Positions 2,529 to 56,593 of a stretch of DNA of 64,000 bases are shown here, piece after piece. The first letter of the stretch is position 1. Each line of letters opens with the position of its first letter. This stretch comes from Cupriavidus pauculus (GTDB lineage Bacteria > Pseudomonadota > Gammaproteobacteria > Burkholderiales > Burkholderiaceae), in the NCBI RefSeq assembly GCF_003854935.1, contig NZ_CP033969.1, forward strand, positions 2,108,001 through 2,172,000. Direction: 5' to 3'. The translations under genes were made by a program, and so were the position numbers. Below the pieces are notes generated by a model. The model saw only the letters and a program-made list of their open reading frames with translations. It searched no databases and had not been told where the DNA came from.

Positions 2529-5500
2529 TCAATAGGCCGAGTATGGCCGCACGGGCGTCGGCGGGAACGGCACCGGCAACTCGCGCTTGTCGAACAGGTA
2601 GCGCAGCCAGGCCATGGCGCGATTCGGCGCGTAGTCGCGCGAGCGGTCGATCGAGAACCCGGCGCCCACCACCCAGTGCGGCGCCAGCGTGTATTCGACG
2701 GTCGCGCCCAGCGTATAGCTGAAGCCGCCGCCCGACCCGCCGCCATAGGTGGCGTTGCCGCTGGCCGCCTGCAGGTCCGGCCGCGTGGGAAAGAACGGCG
2801 CGGCGTCCTCGTAGGTCCACGACCAGCCGGCCGATCCCAGCAGCCGCCACGACCACCTGGCATGGCGGCCGGTCCAGTCCAGCGGAATGCCGACCGACAG
2901 GTAGCGCTGCGGGCTGTAGTAGCCGCCGTGCCCGAAGGTGTAGAAGCGCTGGTTTTCCGAGTAGTGCCACCAGTTGAACACCAGCCCGCTGGTCACGCGG
3001 TGATCGCGCTGGGCGTAGACGGGCACGTCGAAGCCGGTGCGCAGCGTGACCTCGCGGTTGGTCTTGACGTTGTCGCCCGTGTAGACCCCGGCGCCCACGT
3101 CGGCAAACAGGCCCAGCCGGCCCACGTCCCGCGCGTAGCGCAGGTGCACGCCGTTGCGGACGATGCCGCCCCAGTGCTCGCCGGTCACCGGGTCGCGCGC
3201 GCCGGCGTACGAGATCAGCGAACTGGTTTGCGCCCGGCGCGACACGTCCACGGTCACCGACTGCACGCCCAGGTCCGCCCGGTAGCGCAGCCCGCCCACC
3301 ACCGTGGTTTCCAGGAAGCCCAGCGGCGTGGTGCCGATATCGGCGCGCCAGCTGTTGTAGGCCCCGTCGTACTCGTAGCCGGCCGCCAGCGCCACGCCCT
3401 TGTCGGTCTGGCCGATGTTGCCCAGCCCGGCATTGCCCAGCGCCGGGATCTTGCCGAACTCCAGGTTGCGCAGCGGCGCGGTGCCGCGCAGCGTGCCGGC
3501 ATCGAGCAGCACCGTGTCGGCATGGAAGAACATGTGCCCCGTGTAGCCGTGCGGCACGCGCACGTACAGCGGGATCTCGGTGGCGTGCAGCCGCGAGATG
3601 CCGTCGTCGCCGGACTTGTTCGACTGCATGACCGCCGTCGCCACCTCGCCCTGCCGCCGCGCATCCAGCCCGGCCAGCGCGCGCTGGGCCGGCGTGCCGT
3701 CGGCGCCCGGCAGCACGCTTTCGCGCTGTTCCAGCGGCAGCGCCGCGCGGTACAGGCCGGCGGCCTCGTCGAAATCGCCGCGCGACTGCGCGATGCGGCC
3801 GCGCTGCACCGTGATGTCGGCGCGGCCCGGAAAGCGTGCGTCCAGCGCGTCCACCACCTCGGCGGCCTCGTCCTCGCGCCGCAGCGCGGTGAAGCGGCGC
3901 GCCACCGACAGCCGCGTGTCGATATCGTCCTCGGGCGCCTCGGCCAGCACCGTGCGGACGATGTCCAGCGCCTGCGCGGTCTGGCCCATCCGCTCGTACT
4001 GGCGCGCCAGCGTCAGTTGCGCGCCGGCGTCGTGCGGCTGCGTGGCCAGCACCCGGCGGGCCGCGTCGGCCGCGCCGCGGTAGTCACCGCCTGCCTCGCG
4101 CAGGTCGGCCAGTTCCAGCAGCCAGCGCCGGTCGGCCTGCTGCGCGGCCGGCACCGCGTCCAGCACCTGCTGCGCGCGCCGCAGGTCGCCGGCGGCGATC
4201 TGGCGGTCGGTCTCGCGCAGCGCCAGCCGCAGCGACTGGTCGGCCAGGTCGGCCTGTTCCTCGGCGGTGGCGCCGGGCAGCGCGCCGGTATCGGCGATCC
4301 ACTGGCGCAGCGCATCGTCGCGGTCGGCGGCGGCCAGCAGTTCGCCGTAGCGCAGCCGGATGTCGACGTGCGGCGCGTCGGGGTGCGCGGCCAGCCAGTC
4401 GCTGACCAGCCGCAGGCCCTTGTCGGTCTCGCCCAGCGCAATCCATTCGCGGCCGATCGACGCCAGCATGTGCGGATCGTCGGCGGCCTCCGCGGCGGCC
4501 TGGTCGAGCAGGCGGCGGGCGTCCGCGTCGCGGCCCTCGGCCACGCGCTGGCGTGCCTCGCGCAGTTGCTGCTGCGCGGCCAGGTTGCGGGCCAGCCCGC
4601 GCATGCTGTCCGAGCGCTCGGCCTGCGGCACGCCGGCCAGCATCGCGGCGGCGCCGTCGATGTCGTCCACGCTGTTCAGGTACAGCGCGCTGGCGTAGCG
4701 CATGTCGTTGCCCGGCGCCGCGCGCATGCCGTCGTCCATCACGCTGCGGCCCAGCGCGGGCAGGCTCAGGTCACGATAGATGCGGGCCAGCGTGAAGCGC
4801 GTCCACGGGTCGTCGGGCCGCAGGCGGATGGCGTCTTCCAGATCGCGGATAGCCGGGCTGCGCTGTTGCCGGGCCAGCGACTGGTCGGCGCGTACCGACA
4901 GCAGGTCGGCCCGCATCGCGCGCAACTCGGCGGCGGACCCCTGCATGCGTGCGGCCTGGCTGGCGATCAGCGGCTCCACCTCGGCCTCGCGGCCTTCCTT
5001 CTGCAGGATGCCGACCAGCGTGCGCAGCGTGCCGACGTCGGGCCTGGGGCGGGCCAGCATCTGGCGCAGTAGCGTTTCGGCCTCGCGGTTCTTGTCCTGC
5101 GCCACCAGTGCGTCGGCCAGGATGCCCTGCGCGTCGGCGTTGGCCGGCTGCTGCGCCAGCGCCTGCCGGGCCAGCCGCTCGGCCTCGGCCGGCTTGCCCT
5201 GGCGATTGGCCTCGCGCGCCTTGGCCACGGTGCCCCAGAACGTGGCCGTGCCGATCAGGCTGCGCCACTTGTCGCTCGGGTCAAGTTGATTGGAGCGCGT
5301 GAACAGCTCGCGCGCCTCGTCGTGGCGGCCCTCGCGCAGCCGCACGAGCCCCAGCCCGCCCACCACCTCGGCATCGTCGCGCCGCTTGCGGTACGCCTGC
5401 TGCAGCGCGATGTCGGCGTCCTTGAGCTGCCCGCGCTCCAGTTGCGCCAGCCCGCGCTGCCGCGCCTGCCAGGCCGGATCGGCCTCGCGCTGCTTCTGCG

Positions 5501-6323
5501 CGGCCACGCGCTTGCCCAGTTCGGCCAGCGTGTCCTGCGCGCCCTTGTCGTCGGGCACGGCCTTCACGTAGCGCTCGAACCAGACGTAGTAGGCCGGGTC
5601 GTCGTTGACGCGGTACAGCGTGCGCCGCCAGATGTCGAGCGCGGTGGCCCGGTCGCCCTCGGGCTGCTGCGTGACTTCGTAGAGCAGCGCAAAGCCTTCC
5701 TGCCGGGTGCCGGCGCGGTCGGTCAGCAGGTCGCCCAGCGTCAGCTTGAGCTGCATGTCCGACGGGTTCGCGCGAATCCGCTGGCGCAGTTCGGCGATGG
5801 CCCGCGTGCGGCCGTCCGGCGTGCCCGAGAGAATGCGGTAGTAGTCGCGCGTCAGGCTGCCGGCCGGCGCGCCGCGCGGAAACAGCTTCTGCAGCCGCTG
5901 CACCGCTTCTTCGTCCTGGCCGCTGCGCGACAGCAGGCGGATGTTGGCCATCTCGCGCTTGTCGCGCGTGGCGATGCGGTAGGCATCGTCCAGCTCCCGC
6001 GTGGCGGCGCTGCCGGGCGCCACGGCCTGCAGCTTCCTGAGCAGCTTGTCGGCCTCGGCCGGGCGGTTCGAGCGGATCTCGATCAGCCCGAGCAGCTTCA
6101 GCGCCTCGGGCTCGTTCGGGTTGATCAGCAGCGCCTTGTCCAGGATGCCGCGTGCCATGTCGGCGCGGTTGCGCGCCTCCCACATCCGCGCGGCGGCCAG
6201 CAACTGCGCCATCTGGGGCGACGGCGCGGCGCGCGAGGCGGGGGCGGGATCTGCGGCAAGGGCAGGCATGGCGGAAGTGGCCAGCAACACGGCCAGCGTG
6301 GGGGCTAGCGCGCTGCGGGGCAT
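2529..6323 (-). CDS. bcsC: BcsC, cellulose synthase outer-membrane export protein (TPR plus beta-barrel)
   Basis: BcsC spans the periplasm and outer membrane and forms the exit channel for cellulose. I chose the start at ATG 6323 because it is followed at once by a signal peptide (LAVLLATSAMPALA) and gives 1264 residues, near the roughly 1150 of E. coli BcsC. The same frame stays open to 7439, but that extension only shadows bcsZ. Residues from about 30 to 780 are arrays of TPR repeats (AEADKLLRKLQAVAPGS and similar). The last 350 or so residues are a beta-barrel rich in Tyr, Gly and Trp, with blocks such as YGGGSGGGFSYTLGATVEY. The start overlaps the end of bcsZ by 19 bp. Confidence 0.94.
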   Translation of the reverse strand: MPRSALAPTLAVLLATSAMPALAADPAPASRAAPSPQMAQLLAAARMWEARNRADMARGILDKALLINPNEPEALKLLGLIEIRSNRPAEADKLLRKLQAVAPGSAATRELDDAYRIATRDKREMANIRLLSRSGQDEEAVQRLQKLFPRGAPAGSLTRDYYRILSGTPDGRTRAIAELRQRIRANPSDMQLKLTLGDLLTDRAGTRQEGFALLYEVTQQPEGDRATALDIWRRTLYRVNDDPAYYVWFERYVKAVPDDKGAQDTLAELGKRVAAQKQREADPAWQARQRGLAQLERGQLKDADIALQQAYRKRRDDAEVVGGLGLVRLREGRHDEARELFTRSNQLDPSDKWRSLIGTATFWGTVAKAREANRQGKPAEAERLARQALAQQPANADAQGILADALVAQDKNREAETLLRQMLARPRPDVGTLRTLVGILQKEGREAEVEPLIASQAARMQGSAAELRAMRADLLSVRADQSLARQQRSPAIRDLEDAIRLRPDDPWTRFTLARIYRDLSLPALGRSVMDDGMRAAPGNDMRYASALYLNSVDDIDGAAAMLAGVPQAERSDSMRGLARNLAAQQQLREARQRVAEGRDADARRLLDQAAAEAADDPHMLASIGREWIALGETDKGLRLVSDWLAAHPDAPHVDIRLRYGELLAAADRDDALRQWIADTGALPGATAEEQADLADQSLRLALRETDRQIAAGDLRRAQQVLDAVPAAQQADRRWLLELADLREAGGDYRGAADAARRVLATQPHDAGAQLTLARQYERMGQTAQALDIVRTVLAEAPEDDIDTRLSVARRFTALRREDEAAEVVDALDARFPGRADITVQRGRIAQSRGDFDEAAGLYRAALPLEQRESVLPGADGTPAQRALAGLDARRQGEVATAVMQSNKSGDDGISRLHATEIPLYVRVPHGYTGHMFFHADTVLLDAGTLRGTAPLRNLEFGKIPALGNAGLGNIGQTDKGVALAAGYEYDGAYNSWRADIGTTPLGFLETTVVGGLRYRADLGVQSVTVDVSRRAQTSSLISYAGARDPVTGEHWGGIVRNGVHLRYARDVGRLGLFADVGAGVYTGDNVKTNREVTLRTGFDVPVYAQRDHRVTSGLVFNWWHYSENQRFYTFGHGGYYSPQRYLSVGIPLDWTGRHARWSWRLLGSAGWSWTYEDAAPFFPTRPDLQAASGNATYGGGSGGGFSYTLGATVEYTLAPHWVVGAGFSIDRSRDYAPNRAMAWLRYLFDKRELPVPFPPTPVRPYSAY

Positions 6324-7492
6324 GTGGATGTCCAGGCCGGCACCAGCGTGCCGTCCGCCTCGAAGCGGAAGTGTCCGTCCAGATGGCCCAGCCCGAACAG
6401 CGCCAGCACCTGGCTGTAGTAGCCCAGCGGCGCCTGCGCGGCCATCGTGCGGGTGCGCTGGGCCTGCCCGCGCGCCGCATCGGCCAGCCCCAGCGCCGCC
6501 AGATACGGGGCCACGGCGGCCGAGAACCCCGCGTTGCCGGCGTTCGCACCGAACGTGCCGGCCTGCGTGTCCACGCGCTCGGGCGGATGGCCGTGCGCCA
6601 CCACGTAGTCGGCCATTGGGCGGAACCGCTGCAGCACCGTGGTGCGCAGCGGGTCGCGCGGGGCGGTCATGCCGGCCCACAGGTAGACGCGGATGGCGTT
6701 GTACGACCCGCCGGCCTGCGTCTGCGCGTCGGGCTGGAAGCCGCGGCCCTTCTGGTACACCGCCCAGTCGGGCGAAAAGCCTTTGGGCGCCGTATCGACG
6801 ATCAGCCGCGCCGAAGTGTCGACGAGCGTCTTCCAGCCGGCATCCTCGGCGCCCAGCACGGCGGCCAGCCGCCGCATCACGGGCAGCGGGACGTAGCTCG
6901 GGTTCAGGCGCCACGTGTCCGGCGTGGGATGGAAGCCGGCCGGCCCCGGCAGCAGCGTGCGGCCCAGCCCAGGCAGCACGGCCGATTCCTCGCGCAGCGC
7001 GCGGCGCGCCAGCACGGTGCCCAGCGCCGTGTAGCGCCGCACCTGCCAGAGCCGGCCCGCTTCCAGCAGCGCGTAGGCGATCCACAGGTCGGCGTCGGAC
7101 GCCGGGTTGCTGTCGATCACGCCCCAGGTGCCGGCCTGCTCGCCCTCGGTGCGCTTGCCCCAGATCCACGCGGGCAGGTGGGCGGTCAGGTCGCCCCGGG
7201 CCAGGTTGTTCTCGGTCCACGCCAGCAGCCGCTCGAACGTGGCGCGGTCGTTGGCGGCCAGCGCGAAGAACAGCCCGTACGACTGGCCTTCGGATACCGT
7301 CACCTGCTGGTCGCTGCTGTCGTCGATGACGCGGCCGTCCCGGCTGATCGTGGCGCGGCGGAAGGCGTCCCAGTCGGGCCAGGGGCAAGACGCGGCGGGG
7401 GCGGCCAGCGCGGGCAGGGTGGCGCCGGCCAGCATGCACGCCACGGCGCAGCGGATCGACACGCGCTTCAGCCAGGCCCGTGCCCGCCGCAT
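6305..7492 (-). CDS. bcsZ: BcsZ, periplasmic endo-1,4-beta-glucanase (glycoside hydrolase family 8)
   Basis: This 395-residue GH8 enzyme trims nascent cellulose in the periplasm. A signal peptide (CAVACMLAGATLPALAAPA, about residues 15-33) leads into the mature domain. The GH8 signature SEGQSYGLFFAL carries the catalytic-acid Glu at residue 68, and later blocks typical of BcsZ include SNPASDADLWIAYALL and GGSYNAIRVYLWAGM. Length is close to E. coli BcsZ (368). It sits between bcsB, whose stop is 1 bp upstream, and bcsC, whose start lies inside its last 19 bp, so the three genes are tightly coupled. Confidence 0.94.
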   Translation of the reverse strand: MRRARAWLKRVSIRCAVACMLAGATLPALAAPAASCPWPDWDAFRRATISRDGRVIDDSSDQQVTVSEGQSYGLFFALAANDRATFERLLAWTENNLARGDLTAHLPAWIWGKRTEGEQAGTWGVIDSNPASDADLWIAYALLEAGRLWQVRRYTALGTVLARRALREESAVLPGLGRTLLPGPAGFHPTPDTWRLNPSYVPLPVMRRLAAVLGAEDAGWKTLVDTSARLIVDTAPKGFSPDWAVYQKGRGFQPDAQTQAGGSYNAIRVYLWAGMTAPRDPLRTTVLQRFRPMADYVVAHGHPPERVDTQAGTFGANAGNAGFSAAVAPYLAALGLADAARGQAQRTRTMAAQAPLGYYSQVLALFGLGHLDGHFRFEADGTLVPAWTSTCPAAR

Positions 7493-7493
7493 G

Positions 7494-9791
7494 TCACCCT
7501 CCGTTGCGCCGCGCGGCCAGCCGGCCCAGCGCCCAGAACAGCGTCAGCGCCACCAGCAGCCCGGCCAGGATGCCGCCCAGCGCCAGCAGCGCCGGGTGCG
7601 CCGACATCGTCATCCACAGCCGCGCATACCAGGGCAGGTTGCCGACGTAGTAGGTCTCGCCCAGCCGCAGGCCCTCCAGGTCGCGCTGGCGGATCACGGT
7701 CAGGTCGCCGCGGATCTGCGCCACCTTGCCGGGGTCTTCCAGCACGTCCAGCACGTCGCGCACGCGGTCGTCGCTGGACGCGGTCAGCGCCACCACGCTG
7801 CGCCGCTCGGCAAACGGGGATTCGAAGCCGATCAGCGCGGCCAGCGGGCCGTCGGCGGACAGGATCGCGCGGCCGGCCGGCGAGATGTTCTCGCTGTCGG
7901 TGCCGCCAATCCAGTTCGACCACGCATGCGCGCGCTGGTCGCGCAGCGCGATCTCGGTCTTGCCGCGCTCCACCAGCAGCGGCAGCGACTTGCCCCACCG
8001 CTGCAGCACCTGCGCGGCGCTGCCGGTGCCGATGATGACGAGGTCGCGGTGCTTGACCGATTCGATGGCGCGGGACGGCGCCACGGTCACGCGCAGCGAC
8101 GGCAGCCCCGTCCACTTGCCCATGTGGCCCAGCACGGTCAGCAGCGCCTCCTGGTCGATCGTGGTCGGCGCGTCGGGGATCACGATCGCCGTGTCGGCCA
8201 GGTCGGCCATGCGCGTGAACGGGTAGCCGCTGTTGGCAAAGAACGCCAGGTTGGGCAGCGCCGCGTAGTGCAGGAAGCCGCTGAAGTCGATCGACGAGTC
8301 GGGGTCCACGGCGGCGCGCGCCACGTTGGCCGCCGTCGACGCGCAGAGCCCGGTCTTCTGCGAATCGATGTGGAAGCGGAACTGCATCTGGTTGTTGCTG
8401 CCCACGCGGAACGCCGGGATCAGGATCTCGTTGCTGACGCTGGCGCTGCCGCCCGACAGCAGCGGCACGCTGACCAGGTTCTCGTCGTTCTGCACCGTCA
8501 GCGGCTTGAGCCGGTACGAGCGCACGAGCTGGTCGTTCACGTCGATGCTGAGCACCGAGTCGTTGTACGTGGACGGCGCCGTGTAGCGGTACTTCATGTT
8601 CATCGGCACCGCGCGGTCGTTCCAGCCGAACAGGTCGGCCGGCACCTTCAGGTTCACGCGGATGGCGTCGGGGCTGGCGCCCGAGACCTGCAACTGCTGC
8701 GGATCGGTGACCAGTTCCTTGAACATCACCGGGCGGTCCACCGGCGCCCAGGCGGGCGCGTCGTAGGGGCGGCGCGGCTGGCCCAGGTCCACCGACTTGA
8801 CCAGCGTGCTGGCGCCGGCCATGCCGGCCTTGCCCAGCACCACCGCGTTGGCGGCCACTTCCAGCTCCTGCGGCGTGCGCCCGGCCAGCACCAGCAGCTT
8901 GCGCGCGGGGTTGGCCGGGTTCGGCATCACGCTGACGGTCGGCCCGTCGATCTTGTCCAGCCGGATGCCGTCGGGCTGCGCGTTCGGCAGCACCAGCGCG
9001 ATGGCGTGGGCGTCGCCCGGTGCCGTGCGCGTGACCGGAAAGCGCAGCTCGCGGTAGCTGGCCAGCGCGCCCAGCCAAGACGCCACCACGCCGGCGGCGC
9101 GCAGCGTGACCGGATCGGCATTGGCGGGCAGCACGAACGGCACGGTCACGCGGCGGTTGTCGCGGCGGTCGAAGAACGGCGCTGGCAGCAGCGCCAGGTT
9201 GTCGGGCAGCGTGACGGTGGACTTGGTCAGCGTCAGCGTGCTGGTGGGGCTGATGTCGGTCCAGAGGCTGGAGTGGTACGGGTCCTCGCAGTGATCGAGC
9301 GTGTAGTGCGCGATCATCTGCACGTTGATGCGGTTGAAGTCGGTGAAGAAGCGCGGGTCCAGGTCGACCTCGCGCGACACCTGCTGGCCGGCGTGCTCCT
9401 TGTCCAGCGGCAGCGTGGCCACCACCTCGTCGTTGAGGCGGATCTTCAGGTGCGACAGCGGGTAGACCAGCGACGGCGAATACGTGAAGACGAGCTTGAG
9501 CCGGGCCGCCGTGACCACCTCGTCCAGCCGCACGCCCACGTTGACCGTGCGGTCAGGGTCCACGCCGCGCAGCGGGATCGTGTAGTTGGCGCCCATCTGG
9601 GCGAAGGTCAGGGACTGGGTGCGCCCCGGCGGCAGCGCCGCGGCGTCGGAAGCCGGGGCCGTGGCGGCCGGCGCGCTGGCCGGGGACTGGGCTGCGGCCG
9701 GCCCGGGGGCCAGCCCCGCGCACCATGCCATCGTCATCGCGACAGCCATCGGCATGCAGCCACGTAGCAGGCCTGACACGAGTTCCGTCAT
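7494..9791 (-). CDS. bcsB: BcsB, cyclic-di-GMP-associated cellulose synthase periplasmic subunit
   Basis: BcsB is the periplasmic, membrane-anchored partner of the BcsA synthase and guides the glucan across the periplasm. I prefer ATG 9791 (765 residues) to the longer reading from 9902, because 9791 is directly followed by a signal peptide (MAVAMTMAWCAGLAPGPAAAQ). The body has alternating carbohydrate-binding-like and flavodoxin-like domains, for example the block RVTVPFVLPANADPVTLRAA. The C-terminal membrane anchor is about residues 727-757 (LALGGILAGLLVALTLFWAL). E. coli BcsB has 779 residues. It is the first gene of the visible operon, which is odd because bcsA normally comes directly before it. 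Confidence 0.93.
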   Translation of the reverse strand: MTELVSGLLRGCMPMAVAMTMAWCAGLAPGPAAAQSPASAPAATAPASDAAALPPGRTQSLTFAQMGANYTIPLRGVDPDRTVNVGVRLDEVVTAARLKLVFTYSPSLVYPLSHLKIRLNDEVVATLPLDKEHAGQQVSREVDLDPRFFTDFNRINVQMIAHYTLDHCEDPYHSSLWTDISPTSTLTLTKSTVTLPDNLALLPAPFFDRRDNRRVTVPFVLPANADPVTLRAAGVVASWLGALASYRELRFPVTRTAPGDAHAIALVLPNAQPDGIRLDKIDGPTVSVMPNPANPARKLLVLAGRTPQELEVAANAVVLGKAGMAGASTLVKSVDLGQPRRPYDAPAWAPVDRPVMFKELVTDPQQLQVSGASPDAIRVNLKVPADLFGWNDRAVPMNMKYRYTAPSTYNDSVLSIDVNDQLVRSYRLKPLTVQNDENLVSVPLLSGGSASVSNEILIPAFRVGSNNQMQFRFHIDSQKTGLCASTAANVARAAVDPDSSIDFSGFLHYAALPNLAFFANSGYPFTRMADLADTAIVIPDAPTTIDQEALLTVLGHMGKWTGLPSLRVTVAPSRAIESVKHRDLVIIGTGSAAQVLQRWGKSLPLLVERGKTEIALRDQRAHAWSNWIGGTDSENISPAGRAILSADGPLAALIGFESPFAERRSVVALTASSDDRVRDVLDVLEDPGKVAQIRGDLTVIRQRDLEGLRLGETYYVGNLPWYARLWMTMSAHPALLALGGILAGLLVALTLFWALGRLAARRNGG

Positions 9792-43288: not shown

Positions 43289-43753
43289 TCAGAGGTCGCG
43301 CGTGCGGGGGATGACCACCGCCTGGCCGTGCAGCACGCCGTCGGCGTCGATCATCTGCCACAGCGTGGCTTCCTCGATCATGAAACGCCGGCCAGCCTTG
43401 GTGATCCGCACGCCCTTGTAGCCGGACTCGTAGCCCTGCCGCTGCACACGCTCCAGAAAGCGCTGGCGCTCCTCGCGGTTCGGCGCCTCGGCCGACAGCC
43501 GCGACGGCAGGCGGGTAATCTCGTCCCAGTCATAGCCAAAGCGCCGCTGAGCGGCCTTGTTGCCGTAGACGAAGACCGGATCGGCGGCGGTGTTGTGGGC
43601 CAGCACGGCAAACGGGGCGTCTTCGTAGAGCCAGCGCATCGCGTCGGCCGGTGACATCTGCTGGGGCACCAGCGGCTTGCCGAGGATGCGCGCGTGGCTG
43701 TCGGCCAGCAGCGCGTAGAAGTCAGGATCGCTGTGGCGGGGCAGCATCGCCAT
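43289..43753 (-). CDS. MEKHLA-domain protein (PAS-like)
   Basis: This 154-residue soluble protein matches the MEKHLA domain, a PAS-related sensory fold, through FAVLAHNTAADPVFVYGNKA, AAQRRFGYDWDEITRLPSRL and SGYKGVRITKAGRRFMIEEA. In plants and bacteria the domain is linked to light or redox sensing, but no ligand is known here. There is no output domain, so it may act as a free sensor or adaptor. A second in-frame ATG lies two codons in. It is convergent with the rhodanese gene. Confidence 0.8.
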   Translation of the reverse strand: MAMLPRHSDPDFYALLADSHARILGKPLVPQQMSPADAMRWLYEDAPFAVLAHNTAADPVFVYGNKAAQRRFGYDWDEITRLPSRLSAEAPNREERQRFLERVQRQGYESGYKGVRITKAGRRFMIEEATLWQMIDADGVLHGQAVVIPRTRDL

Positions 43754-43980: not shown

Positions 43981-44313
43981 TGTTTGGGTCCTGGGTGAGA
44001 GGGGTGATGTTTTCGGCGCTTTTTTGGGCGATGGATGGGGCGGATAGCCGTTTGACGAGTGGCTATGGTAGTGGGCAATGCGGGGGTGGGCAATTAGCTG
44101 TTGGTTTATGGGGGTGGTTGCTGGGGCGGTGGGTTTTGTGCGGCTGGCCCTCTCCCCCGGCCCCTCTCCCGCGCGCGGGAGAGGGGAGAAAACCATGGGC
44201 TACGGCGCGGGTAATGCCGGGGGGTTGCTCCCCTCTCCCGCCTGCGGGAGAGGGGCCGGGGGAGAGGGCAAGCGCTTCAACCTGCCAACCATCCCTCGAC
44301 ACCATCCAACCCA
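43981..44313. other. 333-bp gene-free region with clustered palindromes
   Basis: There is no convincing gene between the small ORF start at 43980 and the CheY stop at 44314. The left half (43981-44140) is T/G rich and likely holds the promoter of the small ORF and MEKHLA pair. The right half carries a composite palindromic repeat at 44147-44269. Short ORFs called here read through the repeat and are not believable. Confidence 0.7.
44147..44269. repeat. REPIN-like composite palindrome
   Basis: Perfect 26-bp inverted arms, 44147-44172 and 44244-44269, flank 71 bp. Each arm contains a shorter hairpin core (CCCTCTCCCG / CGGGAGAGGG), so there are hairpins within a larger hairpin. The same core occurs singly at 21.9 and 56.6 kb. 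Two REP-like units in opposite orientation is the layout of a REPIN. No T-run follows. Confidence 0.8.
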
Positions 44314-44679
44314 TCATCCCGCCAGCTTCCGCAACCCCTCCAGCACGGCCGTGCCCTTGAACGGCTTGACGATCCAGCCCTTGACGCCGGCGGCCTTGCC
44401 GCGGTCCTTCATGGCCTGGCTGCTCTCGGTGGTCAGCATCACCACGTTCACCGTCGGGTTGGCCAGTTCGCTGCGGATTTTCTCGACCATGGTCAGGCCG
44501 TCCATGTTGGGCATGTTGACGTCGCTGATGACGAGCCGGATGCCGGGGTCGGCCTTGAGCCGGGACAGGCCGTCCTTGCCGTCGACGGCGGTCTGCACGT
44601 CCAGCCCGTTGCCGCGCAGGAAGCCGGCTACCTCGTCGCGCACGGCGCTTGAATCGTCCACTACCAGAATCCTTGCCAA
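44314..44679 (-). CDS. CheY-like stand-alone response regulator
   Basis: This 121-residue receiver domain has the acidic pair Asp8-Asp9 in VVDDSSAV, the phosphoacceptor Asp53 in LVISDVNMPNMDG, the threonine switch in VVMLTTESS and the lysine in GWIVKPFKG. There is no output domain, so it works by binding a partner, as CheY binds the flagellar switch. Start is a TTG (44679), with GGAG eight bases upstream; no ATG gives a full receiver. It is the last gene of the chemosensory-like module, 20 bp after the CheX-like gene, and is followed by the composite repeat. Confidence 0.9.
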   Translation of the reverse strand: MARILVVDDSSAVRDEVAGFLRGNGLDVQTAVDGKDGLSRLKADPGIRLVISDVNMPNMDGLTMVEKIRSELANPTVNVVMLTTESSQAMKDRGKAAGVKGWIVKPFKGTAVLEGLRKLAG

Positions 44680-44699
44680 GATCGTTTCTCCAAAGGGGG

Positions 44700-45239
44700 T
44701 CAGAACAGTTCCAGTTCGCCGTCGGTGGTCGCTTCCTCGGCGTCGGGCGCCACGTGGAAGTCGACCGGCACGCGCGTGAACAGGCACATCGTCACGGCCA
44801 CGTGGACGGCCGGGCCGATCACGACGTCGAAGTCGGCGCGGTGGTCGGGGTGCAGGCTGTCCACGTGCCGCAGGCAGGCGGCGTCCAGCACGTAGGGCGT
44901 GGACATGCCCAGGTCCGGGAAATGCCGGCCGAGGTCCTGGTTGATCGCGCCGCAGCAGAGGTTGCCGCGTTCCAGCAGCGCGTCGCGCAGGTCGCCGGTG
45001 GCCGCGTAGTAGCCGGCGGTGGCCGGGTCGTCGCCAAAGCGCAGGAACAGCATGTAGCGGAAGCCCATCGACGCGATCGTGAGCACCACCACGCTGCCGG
45101 CCGCGTCGCCGGTTGCCGGGGGCGCGTCGGTGATCGTGCACGGGTCGCCGGCGTCGAGCACCAGCCGGGACCGTACCGCGCGGTGCAGCACGTGCGCCAG
45201 GCTGTGCCGCGCCTGGGCGCTGATCAGGTCCGCGCTCAC
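44700..45239 (-). CDS. CheX-like protein, candidate CheY phosphatase
   Basis: This 179-residue protein has the CheC/CheX hallmark ExxN (Glu90-Arg-Gly-Asn93) in DALLERGNLCCGAINQDLGR, followed by LGMSTPYVL, which fits the STP-type segment of CheX. CheX and CheC dephosphorylate CheY-P, the partner encoded 20 bp downstream. The start is GTG 45239, overlapping the MCP-like stop by 4 bp (GTGA). The similarity is partial (one ExxN motif, not two), so I call it CheX-like and treat phosphatase activity as inferred. Confidence 0.72.
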   Translation of the reverse strand: MSADLISAQARHSLAHVLHRAVRSRLVLDAGDPCTITDAPPATGDAAGSVVVLTIASMGFRYMLFLRFGDDPATAGYYAATGDLRDALLERGNLCCGAINQDLGRHFPDLGMSTPYVLDAACLRHVDSLHPDHRADFDVVIGPAVHVAVTMCLFTRVPVDFHVAPDAEEATTDGELELF

Positions 45240-45952
45240 GGGCAGGCCGCCTCGAACTGATCGGCCAGCAGTGCCACGCTGGCCAGCGCGGCGGTCACCA
45301 TCTTGCCGCCGGCCTGGATGTCCTGGAACGTGGCCGTGGTGGTCAGGTCGCTCTGGTGCAGGCTGTCGCCATAGCTCTTCGACAGCGCCTCGGAGCGCGC
45401 CGCCAGCGCGCGGACCTCGCTGGCCACCACGCCAAAGCCGCGCCCGGCCGCGCCCGCGCGGGCCGCCTCGATCGACGCGTTCAGCGACACGATGACCACG
45501 TGCCGGACGATGGCCGACAGCTCCAGGTTCTGCGCGTGCATGGCCCGGTTGCTGGCCATCAGCGCGATCATGTGCGCGTGCCAGCGTTCGAACGTCGTCG
45601 CCAGCCCGCGCAGCCGCGTGGTTTCCTCGGCGATGCGGCGCGCCTGCCGCTGCGCGTCGGCCTGGCGCTGGCGGCTGGTGGCCAGGTCGGCGTCGCGTTG
45701 CGCCAGCGTTGCCGCGTGGCCGGCGGCCTGGGCCTGCAGGCGATCGATCTCGTCCTGCAGGGCCTGCCGCGCCTGCTCGGCGGCGTCCAGGCGGGCGCCC
45801 AGGTCCGCGTGATCCTGTTGCAGCCGTGCCAGCGCCGCCTCGCGCCCGGCCTGCGCCAGCGCCGCCGTCCGCGCACCGCGCCGCCACACCAGCCACGCCG
45901 GCACCGCCACGATTGCCGCGCCCAGCAGCGCCCCTATCAAATACTCACCCAT
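45236..45952 (-). CDS. Short MCP-like signalling protein with one membrane anchor
   Basis: This 238-residue protein has an N-terminal membrane helix (LIGALLGAAIVAVPAWLVW, about 5-23), a long coiled coil (about 30-130) rich in Gln and Ala, and a short MCP-like signalling tip with VSLNASIEAARAGAAGRGFG. There is no periplasmic sensor and no clear methylation region, so it cannot act as a normal chemoreceptor. It starts 54 bp after the kinase gene and overlaps the CheX-like start by 4 bp. I infer it is an internal scaffold or input partner for the kinase. Confidence 0.82.
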   Translation of the reverse strand: MGEYLIGALLGAAIVAVPAWLVWRRGARTAALAQAGREAALARLQQDHADLGARLDAAEQARQALQDEIDRLQAQAAGHAATLAQRDADLATSRQRQADAQRQARRIAEETTRLRGLATTFERWHAHMIALMASNRAMHAQNLELSAIVRHVVIVSLNASIEAARAGAAGRGFGVVASEVRALAARSEALSKSYGDSLHQSDLTTTATFQDIQAGGKMVTAALASVALLADQFEAACP

Positions 45953-46006
45953 GCTGCGTGTTCCTCGTCCTGATCCTGAATGCTGATGCCGGCCAGCGCG
46001 GCCGGG

Positions 46007-48382
46007 CTACAGCGGCATGGGCGCCGGCGTCTCGGCCAGCACGGCGACGCTGTCGACGGCAAAGCGTTCCGGCAGGCTGACCACGGTCTGGAACTGCCGG
46101 AACGGCGCGCCGGCGTGGGCGTCCGTGAAGCGCAGCGCGATGCTGCCGCCCGAGCGGGCCAGGAACTCGCGCACGGCGTCCATGCCGACGCCGCGGCCCG
46201 AGATCGTCGTGACCGTATCCGCTGTCGAGAAGCCCGGGCGGAAGATGAGCTGCGCGAGCGCGTCGTCGCCGGGCGTGGCGTCCGGGGCAATCCAGCCGCG
46301 CGCCACGGCCGTGGCGCGGATCTTGTCGAGTGCCAGCCCGCGGCCATCGTCGGCCACGGTGATCTGCAGCGCCTGCTGGTCCACGCCGGCCTCGATGACG
46401 ATGCGGCCCGCCGCCGGCTTGCCGGCCGCCAGCCGCGCCGGGGCCGGTTCGATGCCATGGTCGATGGCGTTGCGCAGCAGGTGCGTCAGCACGTTTTCCA
46501 GCATGCCGGTGACCTCGGCGCGCAGCCGGTAGCCGTTGTCCTGGATGCTGACCTCGGGCGCGGCCTTGCCCAGTTCGGCCGCCAGCGAGGGCAGGGCGTC
46601 GACCACGGGCGCCACCACTTCGGCCAGGCTCGTGGCGTCCAGCACGCGCAGGATGCGGTGCACGGCCGCCCGCATCGACAGCAGCTCGGCCAGGCTGTCC
46701 GTGGGCGTGGTTTCCAGCAGGTGCAGGCTCTGGCGGATGCGCTGCAGCTCGGCGTCGGCCAGCCGTGCGGCCTCCTGTGCCGGCGTTGCGCGGCTGCGGC
46801 CCTTGCGGCCGAGCTTGTCCTCGCTGATGGTGGCGTAGCGGCTCAGTGTGTCGCGCACGCGCGCCACGTCGCTCAGCAGCGCGTCGGGGTTCCACTCGCC
46901 GGCCTCGCGCTCCAGGTTGCGCAGCAGTTCCAGCCGCTGTTCGGCCTCGTGCACCACGTCGGTCAGGTGCTGGAGCTTGTAGGTGCGCGCGTTGCCCTTG
47001 ATCGTGTGCATGTTGCGGAACAGCGCGGCAATGGCGGCGTTGTCGGCCTCGGTGGCCTGCCGGATGATGTGCTCGTTCTCGTGCACGAAGCCGTGGGCCG
47101 TGTCCATGAACTGGTGGAATTTCTCTTCGCTGACGGCCAGGATCTCGCCGATGATCTCCAGGCTGCGGCGCTGCTCGCTGGCCTCGGCGGCCAGTTCGCG
47201 GAGCTGCGTGACGTCGCGCACGCAGAGCATCAGCCGGATGATCGTGTCGGCATCGTCGGTGATTGCCGACCAACTCAGGTCCAGCACCTTGGCCGTGCCG
47301 TCGGGCAGGCGTTTTTCGATCTCGGTGGGCAGCAGGTGCTCGTTGAAGACGAAGTTGATGCCGTCCTGGCCCAGGCAGGCGTCGATGGCGGCGTCCACCT
47401 GCGCCAGGGCGTCGGCGCCCAGCGGGGTATCGGTGAACACCAGGTCCATGAAGCGGCGGCCCGCGATGTCGCCCGTGCCGAAGATCTGCTCCAGGTAGGC
47501 CGAGTACTCGGGGTGCACCACGCCGCCTTCGACCACGGTCAGGATGCCCTGCTGCATGTTCTGCAGGATGGCCTGGATGTCGGTGGTCTTCTGGCGCAGC
47601 AGCGAGGCGTTTTCCTGGATCCGCTCGATCATCTGGTTGAACGCGGCGATCGAGTGGCCGATCTCGTCCATGCGGCCCACCTCGATGCGGCGCGTGAAGT
47701 CCTGGCTGGTGGCAATCTCGCTCATGGTGGCCTGCATGCGCGTGAGCGGGCGGGCGATCTGGCGGTGCAGCAGCCAGCCAATCAGCGTCAGCAGCACCAC
47801 CGCCGCGCCGCTGACCAGCCCGATGGTGCCGGCCGCGCTGGCCAGCTTGCCGTTCAGCGTGGCGATGGCGTCGTCCTTCTCGCGGTTCTTTTCCACGCGC
47901 AGGGTGTCGACGATCTTCTCCATCTCGTCGCGGTAGCGCGCCACGTTGGCGAACAGGAACGCCTGGGCGATCTCGTCGCGGCCGGCGGCCTTCATCTCGG
48001 CCGTCTCGCGGATTGCATCGAAGTAGTTGGTCAGGCTTTCGTCGGCCTGGGCCAGCAGGCCCTTCTGCGCGTGCGTGGCGGCGTTGCCGGCCTGCCTGGC
48101 CAGCGCGTCGCGCAGGGCTGCCTGGCGGGCCTTGAGGTCGTCCTGCGCCTGCGCCAGCAACTGGGCGTCGGGCGCGTAGACCAGGGTCATGGTGGCCAGC
48201 TGGATGTCCTTGACCAGCGACACGACGTCGGCGGATGCCAGCGCGCTGGGCACCACGCCTTCGGTCACCTGTTTGACTTCAGAAGCGCTGGAACGGGTCT
48301 GTAGCACCGCGTAGCCGCCAATCGCGGCCAACGCCAGGCACATCAGGACGATCAGCAGCACGATGCGCTGACGAATGGTCAT
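46007..48382 (-). CDS. Membrane-bound CheA-like kinase without a CheW domain
   Basis: This 791-residue protein has two membrane helices (about 8-27 and 185-205), a periplasmic four-helix sensor between them (30-180), a HAMP domain (206-260), a PAS-like segment (265-395) and an Hpt domain with phospho-His459 in MHTIKGNART. The ATPase resembles that of CheA, with the N-box LRNAIDHGIE (Asn638), DDGRG (678-682), IFRPGFST and GRGVGMD (729-735). No P3 dimerisation bundle is obvious and no CheW-type P5 domain follows the ATPase, since only about 40 residues remain. So it is a fused receptor and kinase that would not need CheW. It begins the four-gene module. Confidence 0.88.
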   Translation of the reverse strand: MTIRQRIVLLIVLMCLALAAIGGYAVLQTRSSASEVKQVTEGVVPSALASADVVSLVKDIQLATMTLVYAPDAQLLAQAQDDLKARQAALRDALARQAGNAATHAQKGLLAQADESLTNYFDAIRETAEMKAAGRDEIAQAFLFANVARYRDEMEKIVDTLRVEKNREKDDAIATLNGKLASAAGTIGLVSGAAVVLLTLIGWLLHRQIARPLTRMQATMSEIATSQDFTRRIEVGRMDEIGHSIAAFNQMIERIQENASLLRQKTTDIQAILQNMQQGILTVVEGGVVHPEYSAYLEQIFGTGDIAGRRFMDLVFTDTPLGADALAQVDAAIDACLGQDGINFVFNEHLLPTEIEKRLPDGTAKVLDLSWSAITDDADTIIRLMLCVRDVTQLRELAAEASEQRRSLEIIGEILAVSEEKFHQFMDTAHGFVHENEHIIRQATEADNAAIAALFRNMHTIKGNARTYKLQHLTDVVHEAEQRLELLRNLEREAGEWNPDALLSDVARVRDTLSRYATISEDKLGRKGRSRATPAQEAARLADAELQRIRQSLHLLETTPTDSLAELLSMRAAVHRILRVLDATSLAEVVAPVVDALPSLAAELGKAAPEVSIQDNGYRLRAEVTGMLENVLTHLLRNAIDHGIEPAPARLAAGKPAAGRIVIEAGVDQQALQITVADDGRGLALDKIRATAVARGWIAPDATPGDDALAQLIFRPGFSTADTVTTISGRGVGMDAVREFLARSGGSIALRFTDAHAGAPFRQFQTVVSLPERFAVDSVAVLAETPAPMPL

Positions 48383-48627: not shown

Positions 48628-49437
48628 ATGCGAATGATCGGGATGGCGCACGAGTCGATTCCCCCCGAAATTGCCGGGCAGGTACTGCTGGCTTGCGCCG
48701 TGATCGCCCGGCACCTTGGCGATACGCTGCGGAGCATCCACCTGTTCGGATCGGCGGTGGAAGGCGGGCTGAAGCCGGGCAGCGATATCGACCTGCTGGT
48801 CAGCGTGTCCACCCCGCCAGCCGACGCGGCACGCCAGGGGCTGCTGCAAGAACTGCTGACGGTCTCCGCGCGCCCCGGCGTGGACGGCGCGTGGCGGCCG
48901 CTGGAGGTCACCGTGGTCACGCAAGACGCCGTGGCGCCGTGGCGGCATCCCGCGCGGCGCGAGTTGCAGTTCGGCGAATGGCTGCGCGCCGACCTGCTGG
49001 CCGACCGCTTCGAGCCGCCCATGACCGATCCCGACCTGACCCTCCTGCTGACCCAGGCGCGACGGCACAGCGTGGCCGTGGTGGGGCGTCCGGCCAGGGA
49101 CTGCTTCGACCCCGTACCGGCCGCCGACTTCGCCGCGGCGCTGCGCGACACGCTGGCCCAGTGGAACGGCCCGGCCGACTGGCAGGGCGACGAACGAAAC
49201 GTGGTGCTGGCGCTGGCGCGGATCTGGTACAGCGCGGAGACCGGCGATATCGCCGCCAAGGACACGGCCGCCGCATGGCTGCTCGAACGGCTGCCGGCGG
49301 ACCATCGCCCCGTCCTGGCCGAAGCCCGCGCGGGCTACCTGGGCGCATCGTCCGGCCTGCCGCTGGACCCAGCCGCGGTTGCGGCTTTCGTCGGCCATGC
49401 GCGGCCGGCGATCGAGAAATTGCTGGGGGAGGGGTGA
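48628..49437 (+). CDS. AadA-like aminoglycoside nucleotidyltransferase, ANT(3'')-type
   Basis: This 269-residue protein closely follows the AadA layout: HLFGSAVEGGLKPGSDIDLL near the start (nucleotidyltransferase motif), WRPLEVTVVTQDAVAPWRHP, RRELQFGEWLRADLL and GDERNVVLALARIWYSAETG. AadA enzymes adenylylate streptomycin and spectinomycin. No integron, attC site or transposase is nearby and base composition matches the chromosome, so it looks intrinsic. I chose ATG 48628, preceded by GAGGAG; a second ATG lies two codons later. The 245 bp upstream show no operator I recognise. Resistance is inferred from the family only. Confidence 0.85.
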   Translation: MRMIGMAHESIPPEIAGQVLLACAVIARHLGDTLRSIHLFGSAVEGGLKPGSDIDLLVSVSTPPADAARQGLLQELLTVSARPGVDGAWRPLEVTVVTQDAVAPWRHPARRELQFGEWLRADLLADRFEPPMTDPDLTLLLTQARRHSVAVVGRPARDCFDPVPAADFAAALRDTLAQWNGPADWQGDERNVVLALARIWYSAETGDIAAKDTAAAWLLERLPADHRPVLAEARAGYLGASSGLPLDPAAVAAFVGHARPAIEKLLGEG

Positions 49438-56563: not shown

Positions 56564-56593
56564 CTCCCCTCTCCCGCAGGCGGGAGAGGGGAG
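56564..56593. repeat. CTCCCCTCTCCCG hairpin repeat
   Basis: A perfect 13-bp inverted repeat (CTCCCCTCTCCCG / CGGGAGAGGGGAG, loop CAGG) lies 30 bp after the prpE stop. It shares its core with the repeats at 21.9 and 44.2 kb. Four Ts lie just before it, so it could end transcription on the opposite strand. Confidence 0.75.

Follow-up and report, generated by a model that had tools for sequence, protein, structure and literature searches.

A probable self-contained chemosensory-like module built on a receptor-kinase without a CheW domain in Cupriavidus pauculus

CheW is regarded as the indispensable link between receptors and CheA. A locus in Cupriavidus pauculus (Burkholderiaceae) raises the question of how a chemosensory-like pathway could be organised when receptor and kinase are one protein and no CheW domain is part of it. 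The locus lies in a 64,000-nucleotide stretch of contig NZ_CP033969.1 (positions 2,108,001 to 2,172,000, here called the window), in which the minus strand carries four head-to-tail genes in the order receptor-kinase, MCP-like protein (MCP, methyl-accepting chemotaxis protein), CheX-like protein and CheY. The kinase and MCP-like genes are 54 nucleotides (nt) apart, the MCP-like and CheX-like genes overlap by 4 nt and 20 nt separate the CheX-like gene from cheY, which is the gene spacing of one operon. Our reading, with a probability of roughly 0.66, is that the four genes form a self-contained chemosensory-like phosphorelay, a receptor-kinase/CheY/CheX module. The genes are, in window coordinates:

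46007..48382, minus strand: receptor-kinase, 791 amino acids (Pfam, PDB profile search, AlphaFold model, fold search)
45236..45952, minus strand: short MCP-like protein, 238 amino acids, with an N-terminal hydrophobic segment (MCPsignal, hydropathy)
44700..45239, minus strand: CheX-like phosphatase, 179 amino acids, GTG start (CheX fold, ExxN)
44314..44679, minus strand: stand-alone CheY, 121 amino acids (Response_reg 82 bits)

Receptor and kinase in one protein

The original prediction, made from the sequence alone, described the first gene product as a fusion of a sensor, HAMP, PAS-like, Hpt (His459) and CheA-type ATPase domains with no CheW domain. Pfam, profile searches and the structure model all bear out this description. 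From the N-terminus the order is four-helix-bundle sensor, transmembrane segment, HAMP, PAS, CheA P1, P3-like hairpin and CheA P4, and P5/CheW is absent:

47828..48301, minus strand: four-helix-bundle sensor, residues 28-185, flanked by two hydrophobic segments (Pfam 4HB_MCP_1)
47612..47773, minus strand: HAMP domain, residues 204-257 (Pfam HAMP 41.3 bits)
47213..47551, minus strand: PAS-like domain, residues 278-390 (alpha/beta segment of the AlphaFold model)
46823..47119, minus strand: CheA P1/Hpt with His459, residues 422-520 (Pfam Hpt 31.6 bits, cut-off 24.6; CheA P1 alignment)
46640..46780, minus strand: P3-like helical hairpin, residues 535-581 (model helices; profile match)
46064..46639, minus strand: CheA-type ATPase P4, residues 582-773 (Pfam HATPase_c; profile and fold match)

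The Pfam families 4HB_MCP_1, HAMP, Hpt and HATPase_c all scored above their cut-offs, and the motif MHTxKG[NS]AR in P1 was conserved in 44 of 44 kinases. When a profile of the kinases, whose numbering coincides with the window residues at His459, was compared with PDB, CheA P1 was matched at 422-520 and CheA P3-P4 from 538 or 558 to 747, with the CheA of T. maritima matched from position 538. This was paralleled by the VIA fold search, where residues 537-773 aligned with residues 302-540 of 1b3q at a root-mean-square deviation of 9.6; the fold-search lists (VIA, Foldseek) also include ordinary sensor kinases and helical bundles. One kinase (L083, genome G449) was excluded from the profile for a frameshift: its gene (L083:4001-6381) is in two frames, split near residue 600, by assembly error or real loss.

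The absence of a CheW domain was observed in two ways. No Pfam CheW match was obtained in the kinase at E 0.1, and the structural match to CheA stops at residue 773 of 791, which leaves no room for a domain as large as CheW, whose Pfam family spans 138 positions. In 43 kinases only 54-93 residues follow the motif GRGVGMDAV, the 44th being that of L083, frameshifted before the motif. In the profile check for P3 and P5 proposed together with the original prediction, P5 is absent, and P3 has no Pfam H-kinase_dim match in the window kinase, though a hairpin is modelled there (helices 535-558 and 564-581) and appears in the profile alignment; this region is poorly conserved (19-43%). Likewise, Pfam PAS had no match in the window kinase and reached 17.4 bits, below the cut-off of 22.6, in the B. 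cenocepacia orthologue. The AlphaFold model has a mean pLDDT (per-residue confidence) of 77.4 and a pTM (predicted template-modelling score) of 0.47.

That receptor and kinase are one protein is supported by this domain anatomy and further by an exchange of sensors among relatives. In three kinases, those of L104 and L105 and the second one of L103, identity to the window kinase is only 16-20% in the sensor region, 19-34% in the linker/P3 stretch and 43-64% in PAS, Hpt and P4. The sensor has been swapped, with PAS, Hpt and P4 kept, as is expected if the kinase itself is the receptor. L103, from a beta-proteobacterial metagenome-assembled genome (MAG), has two adjacent receptor-kinases with different sensors (4176-6452 and 7001-9364) beside a single set of MCP-like, CheX, fifth (see below) and CheY genes.

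A kinase of this type was found in 116 of 250 family genomes; four candidates were scored per genome, so that a few absences could be false, and ten of the 126 genomes with kinase matches had a match confined to the ATPase region, for which reason they are excluded from the carrier count. We then looked at the neighbourhood in 40 of the 116 carriers, chosen by kinase match only and for spread over genera. All 40 have the four genes on one strand and in the same order, which bears out the expectation that they travel together. Three plasmid or chromid loci (L044-L046) hold the same arrangement (3/3); they were picked up by a DNA search that covered several of the genes and are thus biased toward co-occurrence. 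With these, strand and order are the same in 43 of 43 family loci. The 43 CheX sequences from these loci all differ from one another, and one pair is 96% alike. In a wider scan the set occurred in six (L101-L105, L107) of the 80 loci listed, from Burkholderia, Trinickia and MAGs titled beta proteobacterium, Pseudomonadales, Methylobacter and Ferrovaceae, and L103, L104 and L107 keep the set adjacent in a changed gene order. The other 74 of the loci listed had no CheX-like match at E 1e-5, and for many of them the match to the query is limited to the ATPase region.

The MCP-like, CheX-like and CheY partners

The second gene encodes a short protein that matches MCPsignal (51.8 bits, cut-off 34.6), as do 14 of 14 homologues scanned, and its profile matches MCP structures, some of them solved with CheA. 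Two elements stand out in the alignment:

45422..45484, minus strand: MCP hairpin tip LNASIEAARAG...GRGFxVVA, residues 157-177 (alignment of homologues)
45311..45328, minus strand: FQDIQA, residues 209-214, a conserved and unexplained element after the tip (44/44 homologues)

The tip signature LNASIEAARxG is kept in 44 of 44 MCP-like sequences. The protein had been predicted to have no sensor, and this part stood, as Pfam gave neither a sensor or ligand domain nor HAMP in the window copy. What the prediction had missed is a hydrophobic N-terminus (hydropathy 2.19 from residue 5), by which the protein looks membrane-anchored. The same property exceeds a simple threshold in 36 of 43 homologues; in the other 7 the start codon picked by script may be wrong, or the hydrophobic segment weaker. 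The window copy has no match to a methylation-site consensus, and 3 of 44 homologues match it at some position. The arms of the hairpin are unequal: counted to where the tip motif ends, about 169 residues come first, and about 75 follow (medians). Separately, FQDIQAGG resembles the sequence FQDLTGQ of the CheZ encoded by the same genome, and CheZ-like catalysis by the MCP-like protein was considered. It was ruled out, as the CheZ motif is DxxxQ (PMC7750401) and a glycine stands four residues after the aspartate.

The third gene product was predicted to be CheX-like with an ExxN motif, and the structure model agrees: its best structural matches are CheX structures, and the motif, at E90 and N93, is present in 44 of 44 sequences. 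The ExxN also aligns with that of the V. vulnificus CheX 6vpw, in a weak match (E 0.32). The features of this protein are:

44961..44972, minus strand: ExxN catalytic motif, E90 and N93 (44/44 sequences)
44703..44720, minus strand: C-terminal tail GELELF (motif conservation in relatives)

The tail was not part of the prediction. In 49 of 49 relatives (the 43 family and six wider loci) the last six residues read G-x-L-E-[LFM]-F and follow a variable stretch, and in the CheX model the tail is disordered, with pLDDT below 50 over residues 173-179. A second protein ends in nearly the same way. At 27 of the 49 loci the cluster includes a fifth protein, composed of a receiver-like N-terminal part and a CheX domain. 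Judged by eye, the receiver-like part seems degenerate, and some loci are without it; the one such protein scanned reached 36.6 bits for Pfam CheX, above the cut-off. All 27 of these proteins have G-[EA]-L-[ED]-[LMF]-F as their last six residues, and an hhalign comparison (probability 52%, E 1.4e-4) makes a relationship with the operon CheX probable. The window genome appears to be without the fifth gene, since PF13690 gave nothing above cut-off there (14.2 bits, which is cheX itself, and 12.3 bits).

How specific the tail is can be read from a DNA pattern of the motif plus stop codon, run over 12 whole genomes. It gave 12 matches, of which 11 were true, and all 11 fell on these proteins, namely cheX in all 8 carriers and the fifth gene in 3. 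The twelfth match, in a non-carrier (G451), ends in TGG and not in a stop, and the other three non-carriers had none; a reversed control pattern gave one match in the 12 genomes. Matches were assigned by coordinates against the fetched loci, and the region of G453, checked separately, holds all five genes. The CheZ of the C. pauculus genome itself ends in an acidic/hydrophobic peptide, VDDLLASLGF.

The last protein is, as predicted, a stand-alone CheY: the Response_reg score comes with no output domain. Its phospho-site D53 is encoded at 44521-44523 on the minus strand. D8 and D9 are conserved in 44 of 44 sequences, and D53, T83 and K105 in 43 of 44, the exception being a truncated copy on an Ideonella dechloratans plasmid (L045, excluded from the CheY profile because it is cut short). 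On that plasmid (L045:9274-9648, L194) the operon cheY breaks off, and after it come an integrase, a phage tail protein and, from a diversity-generating retroelement, Avd genes, as well as reverse transcriptase genes; apparently, a prophage has inserted in cheY.

A proposed signal path and its alternatives

We suggest the following path for the self-contained module. The periplasmic four-helix bundle of the kinase would sense a signal, which, going by the domain order, would pass through the second transmembrane segment, HAMP and PAS to the CheA-type P1/P3/P4 part. The intact catalytic motifs suggest that the kinase phosphorylates His459, and the co-occurrence of the genes that the phosphate then moves to Asp53 of the operon CheY. 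By its fold and motif, the operon CheX may strip the phosphate with its ExxN site; the idea that CheX resets CheY, already part of the original prediction, is supported to that extent. The conserved CheX tail, together with the acidic/hydrophobic end of the genome's own CheZ, leads us to propose by analogy that the flexible G-x-L-E-[LFM]-F peptide could hold CheX to CheY, as the C-terminal peptide of CheZ does. The membrane-anchored MCP-like hairpin would serve as a dedicated scaffold or cluster-former and not as a sensor.

As for the output, a remote target of CheY is the most likely. No recurrent neighbour gene gives a clue to it, since the flanking genes are not common to the loci and the largest flanking family, among mechanically called open reading frames of at least 100 amino acids within stretches of a few kb, occurs in 6 of the 49 loci. 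The leading candidate is the flagellar switch, which is neither shown nor refuted by the distribution of FliM. FliM is present in 116 of 116 carriers among the 250 family genomes, and no carrier is without it; it is also present in 5 of 5 wider-scan genomes searched (two being Burkholderia and Trinickia, with the genome of L103 not among them).

Several observations weigh against a self-contained module of this kind. The 78 FliM-bearing genomes of the 250 that have no such kinase make the FliM co-occurrence weak evidence. The CheX-like protein falls below the Pfam CheX cut-off (13.2 bits vs 27), and Pfam CheX had no match in the three other operon CheX proteins scanned. The P3 and PAS assignments of the kinase rest on a modest model, as its pTM indicates. 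The tail may have the kinase, the MCP-like protein or some other target as its partner, and since the two CheX proteins that carry it are probably related, both may have it from a common ancestor. Finally, the intact MCP tip looks like one that still binds an array-like partner, and all 50 carriers tested, 45 from the 116 in the family and five from the wider scan, encode CheW elsewhere. Co-occurrence with CheW was tried as a measure of CheW-independence and is uninformative: with CheW in every carrier, it cannot tell whether the module runs without it.

These last two points are what would be seen if the module plugs into canonical arrays, where the MCP-like tip binds the CheW or CheA P5 of other systems and the receptor-kinase is an accessory input on borrowed CheW. 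The C. pauculus genome, with three H-kinase_dim and nine CheW matches, could supply such partners, and the match of the MCP-like profile to structures solved with CheA points the same way. However, a kinase without P5 has no entry to the CheA/CheW ring in the known way, and the window copy of the MCP-like protein is without the methylation consensus. Full receptors have matched arms, and those of the MCP-like protein are unequal. We find array membership rather unlikely. The boldest reading, a CheW-free unit in which a receptor-kinase that has lost P5 is coupled via the dedicated sensorless MCP-like hairpin in place of CheW and is switched off by a CheX with an independently evolved CheZ-like tether, is a tentative proposal, with the odds leaning somewhat against it. 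If true, two unrelated phosphatase families in one cell would use the same tail-to-CheY strategy. A conserved pathway with the P1/P3/P4 chemistry of CheA, an MCP tip, CheY and CheX, and no P5 on the kinase, is a natural test of the role of CheW, and the module also bears on how sensor-kinase and chemotaxis signalling interconvert.

With regard to the tail, its partner may be something other than CheY. Receptors have a C-terminal pentapeptide that binds CheR/CheB, and a short motif that ends in Phe at the C-terminus, after a variable disordered stretch, has a similar appearance. The pentapeptide consensus needs two aromatic residues, though, where the CheX tail usually has one; neither cheR nor cheB is in the operon or among the neighbours scanned, and the natural substrate of CheX is CheY. 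We regard a tether to a different protein as unlikely, and the proposed attachment to CheY gives a simple, testable idea on phosphatase targeting.

An ordinary two-component pair of sensor kinase and CheY, with the MCP-like protein a degenerate passenger and CheX a generic phosphatase, fits a kinase whose front resembles a sensor kinase and whose back resembles CheA, and CheW-less proteins with Hpt, a CheA-type ATPase and membrane sensor/HAMP parts do exist elsewhere (L106, L122, L142), but it is very improbable, as the MCP-like protein is kept in 43 family and six wider loci and the full conservation of its tip and FQDIQA in the 44 sequences checked is not expected of a passenger.

Related systems and surroundings of the locus

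Compared with CheA (PDB 6s1k, 8c5v, 1b3q, 4xiv), the kinase has the P1 phospho-histidine, a putative P3-like hairpin and the P4 ATPase in the same order, but it is without P5/CheW and has its own periplasmic sensor, transmembrane segments, HAMP and PAS. Berry et al. 2023 (PMC10782961) report a CheW domain in 100% of the CheA sequences of their set (13,673), which places the kinases described here outside that set. The MCP-like protein shares the hairpin tip sequence with methyl-accepting chemotaxis proteins and differs from them by its unequal arms, by having no ligand-domain or HAMP match and, in the window copy, no methylation consensus. Fold and ExxN are common to the CheX-like protein and CheX (3hzh, 1squ, 6vpw), whereas the score below the Pfam cut-off and the tail extension, which lies outside the aligned part (aligned to residue 155 or 160), are not; the CheX of PMC5789663 belongs to a Rhizobium che operon. 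CheZ is likewise a phosphatase with an acidic/hydrophobic C-terminal peptide, but its catalytic domain is unrelated and the tail sequences differ.

The kinases of L106, L122 and L142 also combine membrane/HAMP parts with Hpt and HATPase_c and have no CheW match, at 24-28% identity in the best segment. Their stretches (only 6 kb for L106) gave no CheX-like match and no MCP match above 60 bits. Since such proteins occur in other groups, the CheW-less membrane Hpt/CheA-ATPase architecture alone is not unique, and it is the gene set and the tail that are distinctive. No description of the four-gene system was met among the titles and abstract openings listed from openly licensed literature, which is a weak test of its absence. 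With 116 carriers among the 250 genomes sampled, the module is common in the family, and its output would bear on many bacteria.

The genes to either side of the operon are unrelated to it and have roles in metabolism and DNA metabolism. The original prediction had placed no cheW, cheR or cheB beside the four genes, and it proved right in what was covered. All nine CheW matches of the genome fall outside the 64-kb window, so that the canonical core unit of receptor, CheW and CheA is not present in the cluster. A scan of eleven neighbouring proteins, namely the three adjacent ones and eight more within about 40-54 kb, found neither cheR nor cheB (the remaining window was not scanned for them). 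Downstream of the operon, a MEKHLA/PAS-domain protein is encoded at 43289-43753 on the minus strand. The divergent neighbour at 48628-49437 on the plus strand is an aminoglycoside nucleotidyltransferase-family protein (379 bits for NCBIfam PRK13746, cut-off 193) that stays under the cut-off of the AadA equivalog (350.6 vs 375). One further feature may mark the 3' boundary of the operon:

44143..44273, no strand assigned: large inverted repeat directly after cheY, possible 3' boundary (arms and RNA fold)

Its arms are 52 nt long and 90% complementary, with an RNA fold z of -11.3, and a simple terminator scan gave no terminator-like site in it. Two copies of a perfect palindromic repeat, CCCTCTCCCGCnnGCGGGAGAGGG, sit within this inverted repeat (44162-44185 and 44231-44254) and a third lies at 56567-56590, while 0 copies are expected from shuffles.

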